IMG/VR virus record: IMGVR_UViG_3300006803_000122
Coordinates: 1-20,581 of that record
DNA from: a virus
Length of the DNA: 20,581 nt
Reading direction: 5' to 3' (one strand)
Shown piece after piece: positions 3,067-18,931 of this stretch; the stretch's first letter is position 1; each line of letters starts with the position of its first letter. Under the pieces are notes generated by a model that was given only the letters and a program-made list of their open reading frames with translations, was not told the origin of the DNA and did not search any database. The position numbers were made by a program, and so were the translations under genes.

Positions 3067-3147
3067 AACTGTTGAAGTTTATAGACGTGTCTTAAGTCGT
3101 CTTGAAGCAAGGCTTATATTACTCTACTGCTCCTACTTTGCAAGCGG

Positions 3148-3429
3148 TTATGTAGCTTTCGCTAATTTTATTGCTTCGTGTACGGTTTGATAGTCAAAAT
3201 AATCGGGTTCATCCAAGTCCGTGCTGCTTATATTCTGCTCTAGCCTCGCGTTTTCCATGTCAATCATGCACCCAAGTTCAGAGGCCGTCTCAATTAACTT
3301 ACTCTCAAGCTCTTCTACTCTCGTCATGATACCCATTAATGCTCTGCCTGCGCCTCTGTTTTTAGATTTCAGCACGTTTTCATGTAAAAGACTGTTACCA
3401 ATGATTCTTATATGTTCACTTGCTTTCAT
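3148..3429 (-). CDS. Hypothetical early protein, helical with coiled-coil potential
   Basis: A 93-residue protein of unknown function. Residues about 30-65 (MGIMTRVEELESKLIETA onward) have heptad-like spacing consistent with a short coiled coil, and the C-terminus is helical. There is no membrane segment or recognised domain. The ATG at 3429 follows AAAGGGGTAGAGT, an acceptable SD. It lies three bases after the zinc-ribbon gene, in the leftward operon. Confidence 0.65.
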   Translation of the reverse strand: MKASEHIRIIGNSLLHENVLKSKNRGAGRALMGIMTRVEELESKLIETASELGCMIDMENARLEQNISSTDLDEPDYFDYQTVHEAIKLAKAT

Positions 3430-9324: not shown

Positions 9325-9552
9325 ATGATTGATTTACTAAAAGAAATAACACCAAGCAATTTAGCTGATTTGGAGCGTGTAGCAGAAAAGGGAATCATTC
9401 AGTGCTTTGACGACGACGACGACATGGCACTACAAACAATAGATTTTGTATCTTATCTACTTGTAGATTATATAAAAGAGAATAGCGCAGTATTAACGGG
9501 TTTAACAATGAATACATCCAGCGTGTTCACGGGTAATAATACGATACATTGA
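9325..9552 (+). CDS. Hypothetical acidic protein
   Basis: A 75-residue acidic protein of unknown function. A run of five GAC codons at 9409-9423 encodes DDDDD after CF, and the flanks are helical (IDLLKEITPSNLADLERVAE; TIDFVSYLLVDYIKE). The GAC run is a simple repeat that could change length by slippage. The ATG at 9325 has a good SD (CAGGAGAT). The preceding 80 bases (9245-9324) hold nothing I can identify. Confidence 0.55.
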   Translation: MIDLLKEITPSNLADLERVAEKGIIQCFDDDDDMALQTIDFVSYLLVDYIKENSAVLTGLTMNTSSVFTGNNTIH

Positions 9553-9771: not shown

Positions 9772-10122
9772 ATGCAGCGTAAAGCAACAAAGAACACGAG
9801 AGGTGCAAACGCAGAAGAAAAGCGATTTATGGCGTGGACTAAAGATCAGCCGTGTATCAATTGCGGTAATCCTTCTCCTTCGATAGTTGATCACGTATAC
9901 GGCTCATGCTTCAAGCATCTAAAGGTTTTAATCGGTCATTGGTTCGTTATACCTTTATGCGTAGAGTGCGACACAGTAAAGACTATAGGATCGTGCAGGG
10001 GCTTTATAAACAAGTTTGGCTCATTGGCTGGCTTGTGGCTAAAAAGCGTGGGAGGCAGTGATTTTGATCCGCCTTACGAGGTTGTAATGTCTATTGAAGA
10101 CTTAGAGAGAAAAGGGTTATGA
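9772..10122 (+). CDS. Zinc-binding HNH-like (NinG/Ref/DUF968-type) recombination protein
   Basis: A 116-residue protein with two CxxC knuckles (C28/C31 in PCINCG and C63/C66 in PLCVEC) flanking D40-H41 in SIVDHVYGS, the layout of a treble-clef HNH nuclease. Proteins of the NinG, Ref and DUF968 groups have this pattern and often sit beside a Holliday-junction resolvase, as here. I cannot decide between those groups by eye, and the third HNH position is not clear. It overlaps rusA by four bases (ATGA). It probably processes DNA during phage recombination or maturation. Confidence 0.65.
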   Translation: MQRKATKNTRGANAEEKRFMAWTKDQPCINCGNPSPSIVDHVYGSCFKHLKVLIGHWFVIPLCVECDTVKTIGSCRGFINKFGSLAGLWLKSVGGSDFDPPYEVVMSIEDLERKGL

Positions 10123-10457
10123 ATGGTTACGGTATAAAGATTAAACCTCTATCGGTAAACAAAGCATGGAAGGGGCGAAGGTTTAAAACTGATACCTACA
10201 AGAAGTATGAGAGAGATGTTATTTTGTTGCTGCCAAAAATAGAGGTGCCAGAGGGTAAGCTGTGCGTTCATTTAGAGTTTGGTTTTAGCAATAAGCAGAG
10301 TGATGCAGACAATCCAGTAAAATTATTTATCGACATATTGCAAAAGAAGTACGGGTTTAACGATAATAAGATATACAGCTATGTTATTAATAAAGCTGAT
10401 ACCGTAAAGGGCGCGGAATACATCATGTTTAATATTACCGCGTTAAATGAGGGTTAA
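10119..10457 (+). CDS. rusA: RusA-type Holliday-junction resolvase
   Basis: A 112-residue protein of the RusA family, which cuts four-way DNA junctions with Mg2+. The catalytic region SDADNPVKLFIDIL (61-74) supplies D62, D64, N65, K68 and D72, and NDNKIYSY near 81-88 supplies the conserved second acidic site (D82). Length fits the family (about 120). It completes the phage recombination set with the Erf-like protein and exonuclease, and would resolve branched concatemers before packaging. It is the last gene before the non-coding structured interval. Confidence 0.9.
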   Translation: MNGYGIKIKPLSVNKAWKGRRFKTDTYKKYERDVILLLPKIEVPEGKLCVHLEFGFSNKQSDADNPVKLFIDILQKKYGFNDNKIYSYVINKADTVKGAEYIMFNITALNEG

Positions 10458-10464
10458 TTAGTAG

Positions 10465-10470
10465 TATAAT
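10465..10470 (+). promoter_or_regulatory. Perfect -10 box, candidate late promoter
   Basis: TATAAT at 10465-10470 is a perfect sigma-70 -10 box. The best -35 at 17-bp spacing is only GTTAAA (10442-10447), 3 of 6, so an activator may be needed. A start seven or eight bases downstream falls at 10477-10478, the first base of the long closing stem described next. It would drive the holin and late genes. Confidence 0.55.
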
Positions 10471-10476
10471 ATAGGC

Positions 10477-10593
10477 TGTTTAGATGAGAGTAAAAGATTC
10501 AGCAAGTGTTGTCTTCGCAAAAGGAGTGGGGGCGACCTAGCTTATGACATTCTGCTGTTTCTCTATGACCCCACATAGACTCTCTTCTAAATA
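10477..10593 (+). ncRNA. Candidate structured RNA (leader of the late operon) with pseudoknot
   Basis: No ORF fills 10458-10613. The closing stem pairs 10477-10491 with 10579-10593 over 15 positions: 13 Watson-Crick, one G-U and one T-T mismatch. Inside, CAGCA (10500-10504) pairs with TGCTG (10553-10557), TGTC (10510-10513) with GACA (10546-10549), and TCGC (10515-10518) with GCGA (10532-10535). CTATG (10563-10567) pairs with CATAG (10574-10578) around the loop ACCCCA. That loop can pair with the GTGGGG at 10526-10531, giving a kissing or pseudoknot contact. No T-run follows, so it is not a simple terminator. A cis leader, antitermination element or small RNA are all possible. Confidence 0.6.
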
Positions 10594-10613
10594 TCTTAAT
10601 AACAGGGGGCTTT

Positions 10614-10982
10614 ATGTTCGAGAAACTAATCTCACCAATCACTAGTATTATCGACAAATTCATACCAGATGCCGACACTAAGCAAAAGATAGCTTATGAC
10701 TTAGCAACTCTTGCCGATAACCACGCACAAGAAATAGCGCTGGCACAGATCGAGTTAAACCGAGAAGAGGCTAAGGGTAATTGGTTTCAAGCAGGATGGC
10801 GGCCACTCACAGGGTGGGTATGCGTCTCTGGTTTCGCAGTTAATTTTTTATTGTCGCCTATCGCCGCTGGTTTTGGTGTTGAGATACCTCAAGCAGATAC
10901 CGCAACTATGCTACCTGTTTTAATGGGTATGCTCGGTCTTGGCACGTTAAGAACTTACGAGAAATCAAAGTACATTAATTAA
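10614..10982 (+). CDS. Holin of the GTA 3-TM type
   Basis: A 122-residue protein that resembles the 3-TM holin family of gene transfer agents and phages. The hallmark is the amphipathic N-terminal region followed by NWFQAGWRPLTGWVCVSGFA at residues 56-75. Membrane segments are at about 64-86 and 98-114, plus a possible amphipathic one near 1-18. It should form pores in the inner membrane that release the endolysin at lysis. The ATG at 10614 has an AGGGGG SD and is the first gene after the structured leader, consistent with late expression. Confidence 0.85.
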   Translation: MFEKLISPITSIIDKFIPDADTKQKIAYDLATLADNHAQEIALAQIELNREEAKGNWFQAGWRPLTGWVCVSGFAVNFLLSPIAAGFGVEIPQADTATMLPVLMGMLGLGTLRTYEKSKYIN

Positions 10983-10994
10983 TAGGAGGGATTT

Positions 10995-11117
10995 ATGCCA
11001 GTCTCAAAAGTAAAACGAGTATCTAATCCAGTAAAAAGCAAAGCTAAAACAAGTAAGCCTAAACGAGTCGCTGCAAGTAAGCCTAAAACAAGTAAACCCA
11101 AGAAAGCTAAGGCTTAA
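10995..11117 (+). CDS. Lysine-rich 40-residue protein with internal repeats
   Basis: A 40-residue, strongly basic peptide (MPVSKVKRVSNPVKSKAKTS, then repeats of SKPK) resembling histone H1-like tails. The 14-bp CAAGTAAGCCTAAA occurs at 11050 and 11074, with a degenerate third copy near 11089, so it grew by tandem duplication. AGGAGGG gives a strong SD for the ATG at 10995. It could bind DNA or the anionic membrane or cell wall; its position in the lysis cluster does not decide. Confidence 0.6.
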   Translation: MPVSKVKRVSNPVKSKAKTSKPKRVAASKPKTSKPKKAKA

Positions 11118-11119
11118 TA

Positions 11120-14138: not shown

Positions 14139-15657
14139 TATAGAGCTAGCAAAGCGTAAACGATTAAAAGACGACCTTACGTTTTACGCTAAGAATTGCT
14201 TACAGATACGCGGTAAAGAAAAGATACAGCATTTCGAGCTAAACAAAGCTCAATTATATATTCACGACATACTAGAAAAGCAGCTAAAAGAAACTGGCAG
14301 AGTTCGCGCTATTGTACTGAAGGGTAGGCAGCAAGGCGTATCGACTTATGCGGAAGCTAGGTTTATATGGCGTGTTACTCATTCAAAAGGTGTTAGAGCT
14401 TTTATTCTCACTCAAGAAGAGGCGGCAAGCCAAACCCTGTTTGAAATGGCTAAGCGCTACTATGACAACCTGCCGGAACCAGTAAAGCCCGCATTATCCG
14501 CATCCAACAGTAAAGAGCTTCATTTTAACAAGCTAGATAGCGGCTATAAGATCGGTACAGCGGGAAACAAGTCAGTTGGTAGATCACAGACAAACCAATT
14601 CTTTCATGGCTCAGAGGTAGCTTTCTGGCCTAATGCTGCAGAACACGCTAAAGGTATACTGCAAACAGTCCCTAACTCAAATGGCACAGAAATCATTTAT
14701 GAATCTACTGCTAATGGGGTGGGAAACTTCTTTCATGAGCAGTGGAAGTTAGCAGAAAGTGGCGAGAGTGATTTTATTCCTATTTTTATACCGTGGTATT
14801 GGCAGGAAGAATACACTAAAGAAGCGCCAGAAGATTTTACTCTTAGTGAAGACGAAGAGCTAATGGTCGAGGCTTATGGTATTAACCCTAATCAACTATC
14901 ATGGCGCAGACAGAAGGTAATCGAATTAAGCGCAGGCGGCATGGATGGCGAAAAAGCATTTATGCAAGAGTACCCATTTAATGCTGTAGAAGCGTTTCAG
15001 GTATCGGGCGGTGATGGATTAATTAAAGCCTCTTATGTGCTTAAAGCTAGAAATAACGAAGTAAACGGTAATGGCCCGCTTATAGTTGGTGTTGACCCTT
15101 CAAGAGGCGGCGATAGATTCTCACTAATTAAAAGGCATGGGCGTAAGGCTTACGATCTTAAGAAGTGGAAGGATGAAGAGATTGACTCGTTAGGTAAGGC
15201 TGTATCTAAGTGTAAAGCCGTATTAGATGAAGTGTGTTCGGTAGCAAAGAAAAAGCCTGATATGATGTTTATTGATGCGGGTGGTGGTGCTGACTTAGTA
15301 GATCGGCTGCATGAACTAGGATATGAAGATAGGGTAAAGGCTATATGGTTCGGCTCTTCACCCCTAGACGACCAGAGATACAAGAATAAGCGCGGGGAAA
15401 TATGGGGTTTGTGTAATGACTGGCTTACTGATGAGAATTTAGAAGTACAAATACCGGATGATGATGAGCTACATGCAGACCTTATAGCCTCTCCCTATGA
15501 TAGGGATTCACATGATAGAATGGTACTATGGCGTAAAGAGCGAATTAAATCTAAATATGGCTATTCACCGGATGATGGTGACGCGCTTTGTTTAACGTTT
15601 GCTGAACCAGTTAATCAAAACCAAAATATAGCGATGAACTATAAAACTCCTTGGTGA
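14128..15657 (+). CDS. terL: Terminase large subunit
   Basis: A 509-residue DNA-packaging motor. The ATPase part has a Walker A-like KGRQQGVST at 65-73, a Walker B-like segment ending in GSEVAFW at about 161-167 and the coupling motif ESTANG at 192-197. The RNase H-like nuclease begins at GVDPSRGGDR (321-330, D323), with FIDAGGGAD near 381 and SPDDGDALCL near 485 as further acidic sites. It cuts concatemers and pumps DNA through the portal, encoded next. Length fits the family. Its ATG lies inside the preceding gene, and the portal starts five bases after its stop. Confidence 0.95.
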   Translation: MPNDIELAKRKRLKDDLTFYAKNCLQIRGKEKIQHFELNKAQLYIHDILEKQLKETGRVRAIVLKGRQQGVSTYAEARFIWRVTHSKGVRAFILTQEEAASQTLFEMAKRYYDNLPEPVKPALSASNSKELHFNKLDSGYKIGTAGNKSVGRSQTNQFFHGSEVAFWPNAAEHAKGILQTVPNSNGTEIIYESTANGVGNFFHEQWKLAESGESDFIPIFIPWYWQEEYTKEAPEDFTLSEDEELMVEAYGINPNQLSWRRQKVIELSAGGMDGEKAFMQEYPFNAVEAFQVSGGDGLIKASYVLKARNNEVNGNGPLIVGVDPSRGGDRFSLIKRHGRKAYDLKKWKDEEIDSLGKAVSKCKAVLDEVCSVAKKKPDMMFIDAGGGADLVDRLHELGYEDRVKAIWFGSSPLDDQRYKNKRGEIWGLCNDWLTDENLEVQIPDDDELHADLIASPYDRDSHDRMVLWRKERIKSKYGYSPDDGDALCLTFAEPVNQNQNIAMNYKTPW

Positions 15658-17877: not shown

Positions 17878-17902
17878 AAGCCTCTTGATCGGGGCTTTTA
17901 TT
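17878..17902 (+). terminator. Rho-independent terminator after the portal gene
   Basis: AAGCCTC (17878-17884) pairs with GGGGCTT (17891-17897), seven pairs with one G-U, loop TTGATC, followed by TTTTATT. It would end portal transcription or read-through before the accessory cassette. Confidence 0.75.
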
Positions 17903-18907: not shown

Positions 18908-18931
18908 AAGCCGCTTAATTGCGGTTTTTTT
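18908..18931 (+). terminator. Rho-independent terminator closing the cassette
   Basis: AAGCCGC (18908-18914) pairs with GCGGTTT (18921-18927), with one G-U and loop TTAATT, followed by a run of seven T (18925-18931). This is the clearest terminator in the window. Confidence 0.85.

Follow-up and report, generated by a model that had tools for sequence, protein, structure and literature searches.

A candidate RNA family with a conserved closing helix and an exchangeable core in the late-operon leader of environmental phages

The stretch of DNA analysed here (the window) comprises 20,581 nucleotides of the virus record IMGVR_UViG_3300006803_000122 and carries, between a RusA-like resolvase gene and the holin gene that opens the late operon, a gap for which an original prediction, made from the sequence alone, had proposed a new structured RNA. 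The absence of an ORF from this gap was borne out, since the scan revealed no + strand ORF of at least 60 amino acids. The perfect TATAAT box that had been noted upstream is indeed present, and it belongs to a motif, TATAATAYA, kept in all of the filled and empty relatives described below; the –35 region of this late promoter in the window is poor and the promoter was not listed by the scanner. At the other end of the gap, the motif TTAAYARYAGG, leading into the Shine-Dalgarno sequence, is conserved in most relatives. The features of the locus are collected in Table 1. Related loci are designated by L numbers.

Table 1. Features of the window locus between the resolvase gene and the holin gene.
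Feature	Position	Strand	Evidence and remarks
RusA-like resolvase	10119..10457	+	PHROG 34, E 1e-7; PF05866 slightly under cut-off
-10 box TATAAT, late promoter	10465..10470	+	Perfect consensus; TATAATAYA kept in all filled and empty relatives
Outer closing helix, left arm (TAGGCTGTTTAGA)	10472..10484	+	Sequence kept across ten distinct elements; in the window, 12 of 13 positions are paired
T of the U-U mismatch that separates the outer helix from the inner one	10485	+	Partner 10585; U-U also in L224, L225 and L226, U-C in L203
Inner closing helix, left arm GAGAGT	10486..10491	+	Partner 10579-10584; compensatory changes in relatives
Exchangeable core, arm 1	10492..10562	+	Imperfect helix 10495-10504 with 10553-10562 and hairpin cap; MFE and centroid fold only
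Hairpin CTATG-ACCCCA-CATAG	10563..10578	+	Predicted fold; adjoins 3' strand of closing helix at the T-arm position; the 6-nt loop is non-canonical
Inner closing helix, right arm ACTCTC	10579..10584	+	Covariation analysis
Outer closing helix, right arm (TCTAAATATCTTA; consensus TCTAAGCAGCTTA)	10586..10598	+	Two-sided change at outer-8
Holin Shine-Dalgarno	10603..10609	+	Read from sequence; outside closing helix, unpaired
Holin (GTA_holin_3TM), first gene of late operon	10614..10982	+	PHROG 3427, E 1e-28; PF11351, E 4e-17

The lack of a T-run in the gap was confirmed, as no terminator-like site (a stem followed by a T-run) occurs between positions 9500 and 11500. On the + strand, terminator-like hairpins are found inside the late region at 17878-17897, directly after the portal gene, and at 18908-18927, and such sites are no commoner in the window than in shuffled sequence. 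No Q-type antiterminator was recognized among the window proteins scanned, which represent part of the ORFs, several small ORFs being without a match; the claim that no Q-like gene precedes the holin holds for these proteins. A short lysine-rich ORF (10995-11118) follows the holin, and similar ORFs occupy the matching place in L083 and L170. Elsewhere in the window, two proteins encoded on the – strand (240-848 and 2401-2958) show AP2-like matches, one of them also an HNH match, and are probably products of homing-endonuclease-type genes with a common C-terminal domain.

The gap folds with a free energy of –39.8 kcal/mol, compared with –25.9 ± 3.0 kcal/mol for shuffled sequences (z –4.58; none of 200 shuffles as good). 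The closing stem of 15 positions with a T-T mismatch that had been described is present, and comparison with homologues lengthens it outward by five bases, giving 10472-10491 paired with 10579-10598 and a C-U mismatch at 10476/10594. The window element forms a single closed domain of about 127 nt. Its helix (consensus TAGGCTGYTTAGA-T-GAGAGT paired with ACTCTC-T-TCTAAGCAGCTTA) extends from the predicted transcription start, +1 (10476-10477), to about 5 nt upstream of the Shine-Dalgarno sequence; the outer left arm may have its first four bases upstream of +1. Within the domain, the fold of the core is a purely thermodynamic prediction. In the fold ensemble, the loop of the hairpin that adjoins the closing helix is unpaired and the first base of the 3' strand of this helix is paired with a probability of 0.99. 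The pseudoknot that had been proposed between this ACCCCA loop and an upstream GTGGGG found no support: GTGGGG (10526-10531) is paired with a probability of at least 0.91 in the nested ensemble, a pseudoknotted fold would be favoured only with a formation penalty below 2.7 kcal/mol, and 14% of shuffles contain by chance five bases in the upstream half that match the loop. The sole copy of the window core found elsewhere, in L176, is identical to it, so that no differing copy is available and covariation can support neither the core nor the pseudoknot. The expectation that no named RNA has this fold agrees with the comparison with Rfam 15, none of whose families matches anywhere in the window at the gathering threshold; a relaxed search returned chance-level eukaryotic and viral families only (E of at least 0.5).

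Relatives of the element were not reached through the holin. In 80 loci with holin homologues the gap was not found upstream, save in a contig identical to the window, which indicates that holin and RNA are not inherited as a unit. RusA and portal homologues led instead to one phage group, in which the element lies further downstream of rusA, past the endolysin gene, with the late promoter 3' of the latter. When the gap was used as a blastn query, matches to the left arm were recovered in L083, L167 and L170; a fitting right arm and an unrelated interior are present in all three. DNA patterns built on promoter and arms recruited L211/L212/L213/L216/L218/L220/L222, L203/L210, L224, L225/L227/L228/L229 and L226; the element of L191 was found by re-scanning the collected sequences. 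Left-arm matches never exceed one per record. Several candidates were set aside: two further matches to the pattern GTGGGGGCGACCTAGC looked unrelated, the short perfect palindromes that fit the pattern in L231 (Actinomadura) and L232/L233 are probably due to chance, and L214, L215, L219, L221 and L223, where the left-arm pattern has no matching right arm, were treated as chance. BLAST searches of the window element, the L225 small RNA and the L230 RNA (see below) against named phages and plasmids gave nothing significant.

In the window group the elements share a common frame, composed of TATAATAYA, the arm TAGGCTGYTTAGAT-GAGAGT, a core, the arm ACTCTC-(T or A/AA)-TCTAAGCAGC-TTAAYARYAGG and the Shine-Dalgarno sequence of the first late gene; the helix arm follows TATAATAYA directly, except in L167 and L170, where another module comes first. 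Across ten distinct elements, 182 of 190 cells of the closing helix are paired, with two-sided changes at 8 pairs, and permuting the right (3') arms among the elements gives a P of 0.0002. The compensatory changes that were to be sought in homologous gaps are found in the closing helix. The pair outer-8 is an example, being U-A in the window, C-G in L083 and L170 and U-G elsewhere. The inner helix alone gives 57 paired cells out of 60 (P 0.0003); it played no part in recruiting relatives and is the sole unbiased test for L224, L225 and L226, because the recruiting patterns included the arms of the outer helix. Within the window phage group (n = 7) the corresponding values are 126 of 133 for the closing helix (P 0.007) and 39 of 42 for the inner helix (P 0.005). 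One-sided changes result in G-U at ten pair-sites but in A-C at a single one (10:1, P 0.006), a bias to be expected if the RNA is transcribed from the + strand. All of these P values are guides rather than strict tests, given the manual alignment of the arms and the relatedness of the ten elements. The idea of a new structured RNA in the late-operon leader is supported by these compensatory changes, by its fixed position and by the lack of an Rfam family. At +1, L167 and L170 have another helix, AACCAAGAGT/ACTCTTGGTT, which suggests that a 5'-terminal helix is maintained even where its sequence is unrelated.

The core is exchangeable. Between near-identical flanks the insert is either missing altogether or consists of unrelated sequence, 86, 183 or 253 nt in length. 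L203 and L191 have 54 identical bases through the promoter and a near-identical start of the downstream gene, around unrelated cores of 86 and 183 nt, respectively; L167, with 253 nt in two modules, and L085, which is empty, have the start of the downstream gene in common. In three close relatives (L085/L202, L175 and L182) the element is absent, the promoter being joined to the Shine-Dalgarno region with the start of the first gene intact, and these empty sites disfavour an essential antiterminator. Short CAGC repeats flanking the element of L203 could explain its loss by deletion. No consistent target-site duplication was seen at the borders of the elements. In L170 (1976-2330) three consecutive structured modules, each with its own long closing helix, are found in one late leader. 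The late promoters of L203, L210, L191 and related phages carry an inverted repeat, ATCATTTTC-N10-GAAAATGAT in L203 and L191, that spans the –35/–10 region and looks like an operator; the promoters of the window and L211 are without it.

The same helix is also found in more diverged phages. In L224, whose sequence is that of L230 (contig JAOUJT010000005.1, from a gammaproteobacterial MAG), and in L226 it lies inside a longer conserved RNA of about 570 nt, located at 6190-6680 of L230 and, for L226, at 14995-15590 of its contig L244 (– strand). The two RNAs are 77% identical over a stretch of 247 bases and further blocks can be aligned. Rfam gave no match for either of them, also with the limit relaxed to E 5 in the case of L226, and when the L230 RNA was searched in 12 related genomes and the L226 RNA in 369, the known copy alone stood out. 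The longer RNA lies upstream of small ORFs and, in L226, also of helicase and primase genes; the L226 phage has genes in common with the window, including a RecE-like exonuclease at 67% identity, and here the element precedes replication genes. On the reverse strand of L225 (about 3130-3260) the same outer helix forms part of a putative freestanding small RNA that has a promoter-like sequence and a T-run terminator; near-identical versions are present in four phage contigs (L225, L227, L228 and L229). Its membership, judged from the pattern together with TA before the arm, the U-U mismatch and the covarying inner helix, is likely but not certain. The presence of the closing helix in this small RNA and in the RNAs of L224 and L226 suggests that it has a meaning outside the late mRNA.

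The cores of several relatives are reminiscent of one half of a tRNA, that of the acceptor and T-arm, in having a hairpin that would stack directly on the 3' strand of the helix. Hairpins of the T-arm type (5 bp and TTCRANN) occur five times in 1577 nt of element sequence, compared with 0.027 per kb in all of the collected DNA, and are carried by modules 2 and 3 of L170, by L211 (two) and by L191. In these two L170 modules, in one of the two L211 hairpins and in L191 the T-arm adjoins the 3' strand of the helix without a spacer, as in tRNA, and the window hairpin occupies the position of the canonical T-arms of L170, L211 and L191. Module 2 of L170 (2071-2141) scores 42 bits with the tRNA family RF00005, whose threshold is 29 bits; it has no clear anticodon arm, and ARAGORN reports no tRNA in L170. 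An 88-nt tRNA-Asp called by ARAGORN in L211 was discarded, being without Rfam backing even at E 1, and neither the window element nor L211 exceeds 29 bits with RF00005. Canonical T-arms are absent from the cores of the window, L083, L203, L224, L225 and L226.

The sequence of the helix is kept across contexts, which suggests a recognised handle, and the core is replaced or lost, which suggests an accessory cargo acting as RNA. Our preferred reading, held tentatively, is an RNA family absent from Rfam in which a conserved helical handle is combined with an exchangeable late-leader cassette, the roles of handle and cargo being inferred. On this view the late-operon mRNA would open with a leader transcribed from the gap. 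The helix, as the comparison shows, pairs the 5' end of this leader with the bases preceding the holin Shine-Dalgarno sequence. As a handle, it would keep the 5' end double-stranded and be recognised by a common partner, such as an RNA-binding protein or a processing nuclease, and the core would be a stable RNA transcribed with the late mRNA and acting thereafter, probably excised in the manner of StxS. Such a cargo would be dispensable and subject to fast turnover, as expected of accessory functions, for example mimicry of host RNAs or decoys. A comparison of gene content revealed shared phage genes but indicated no common RNA-binding protein, and a TROVE/Ro homologue is absent from the 12 records examined, most of which are fragments; a host protein could serve instead. 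It is unlikely, though worth stating, that the late promoter drives a docking helix, recognised by a common partner, onto which phages load and swap structured RNAs, many of them mimicking tRNA, so as to interfere with host RNA-targeting machinery, with the same handle reused in small RNAs and in the RNA of about 570 nt.

The main rival is a 5'-terminal helix acting purely in cis, which would shield the transcript from RppH and RNase E and insulate the Shine-Dalgarno sequence, leaving the core free to drift and to be replaced; no RNA acting in trans would be produced. The span of the helix, from the predicted +1 to about 5 nt before a Shine-Dalgarno sequence that stays free, is well suited to this role, as are the unrelated helices that fill +1 in L167 and L170 and a core that is hypervariable and sometimes missing. 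However, such a role explains neither the enrichment of T-arms nor why the sequence should be kept in diverged phages and in contexts away from the 5' end of an mRNA (L224, L225 and L226), and we regard it as rather unlikely. In another reading the slot would collect captive tRNA genes, which then decay, the closing helix being no more than the extended acceptor helix of the precursor. The 42 bits of L170, the T-arms of L211, L191 and L170 module 3 and the ARAGORN call in L211 point in this direction; against it, ARAGORN finds nothing in L170, the L211 call lacks Rfam support, six cores have no T-arm, and the conserved part is the helix rather than the tRNA. Moreover, leader and trailer are paired in these elements, and a paired leader and trailer normally hinder RNase P. 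Decaying or captive tRNA genes are an improbable origin.

Equally little weight is given to a MITE-like hairpin, a mobile element of DNA bounded by terminal inverted repeats, that would have inserted before the late operon and whose RNA fold would be a by-product. Clean filled and empty sites, conserved ends around a variable interior and the recurrence of the same ends in other phages would all suit such an element. However, the borders show no consistent target-site duplication, copies in the window group all sit at one position with at most one left-arm match per record, and the 10:1 excess of G-U over A-C on the + strand is unlike a DNA repeat. The least probable reading, which we consider very doubtful, is one of the two roles put forward originally, a cis-acting antitermination RNA comparable to HK022 put that would carry late transcription past the two hairpins of the late region. 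HK022 put suppresses terminators by way of the zinc-binding domain of the β' subunit of RNA polymerase. The start of the element at a late promoter, the lack of a Q homologue among the scanned proteins and the two terminator-like sites downstream on the + strand are in its favour; it is weakened by empty relatives that retain promoter and first late gene, by the absence of a terminator-like site just downstream, by the frequency of the distant ones, which does not exceed that in shuffles, and by the fold, as the smaller put RNA has two stem-loops and the element is one closed domain with an unconserved core.

Among known systems, the nearest in position is StxS, which arises by processing of the leader transcribed from the late promoter in Stx phages, depends on the terminator tR' and binds Hfq; small RNAs between the late promoter and the lysis genes are reported from at least eight lambdoid phages (PMC7873438). 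The window element resembles these in being an RNA from the leader between late promoter and late genes, but it has no visible terminator, and none of the lambdoid small RNAs has been reported to have this particular closing helix or a core resembling tRNA. HK022 put, an RNA of about 70 nt with two adjacent stem-loops located at early promoters (PMC9378689), is likewise a structured leader RNA near a phage promoter, whereas the window element is a single domain of about 127 nt at a late promoter, with an exchangeable core, and is dispensable. GOLLD and ROOL are also phage-borne structured RNAs of unknown function, and the linker region of GOLLD sometimes carries tRNAs, making GOLLD an analogy of layout and not a family match (PMC12286853); they are hundreds of nucleotides long, and cmscan finds neither in the window nor in the larger RNA of L224/L226/L230. 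With tRNA (RF00005) several cores have in common a T-arm and an acceptor-like stacking, but the 5' and 3' extensions of the element are paired and most cores have no tRNA traits. In bacterial Y RNA (YrlA) both ends form a closing stem that bears a conserved site for a protein, and the molecule also has a tRNA-like module; the conserved stem sequence of YrlA appears to differ from that of the element, which has no Rfam match, and no TROVE/Ro protein was seen in the 12 records, mostly fragments.

If the preferred reading is true, these elements would represent an undescribed RNA family of environmental phages with an unusual layout, in which the helix is conserved and the core is disposable and often tRNA-like. 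The natural empty, filled and swapped versions, lying between near-identical flanks, would offer ready comparisons for the contribution of a late-leader RNA, and the helix itself would be a search handle for further swappable phage RNAs.
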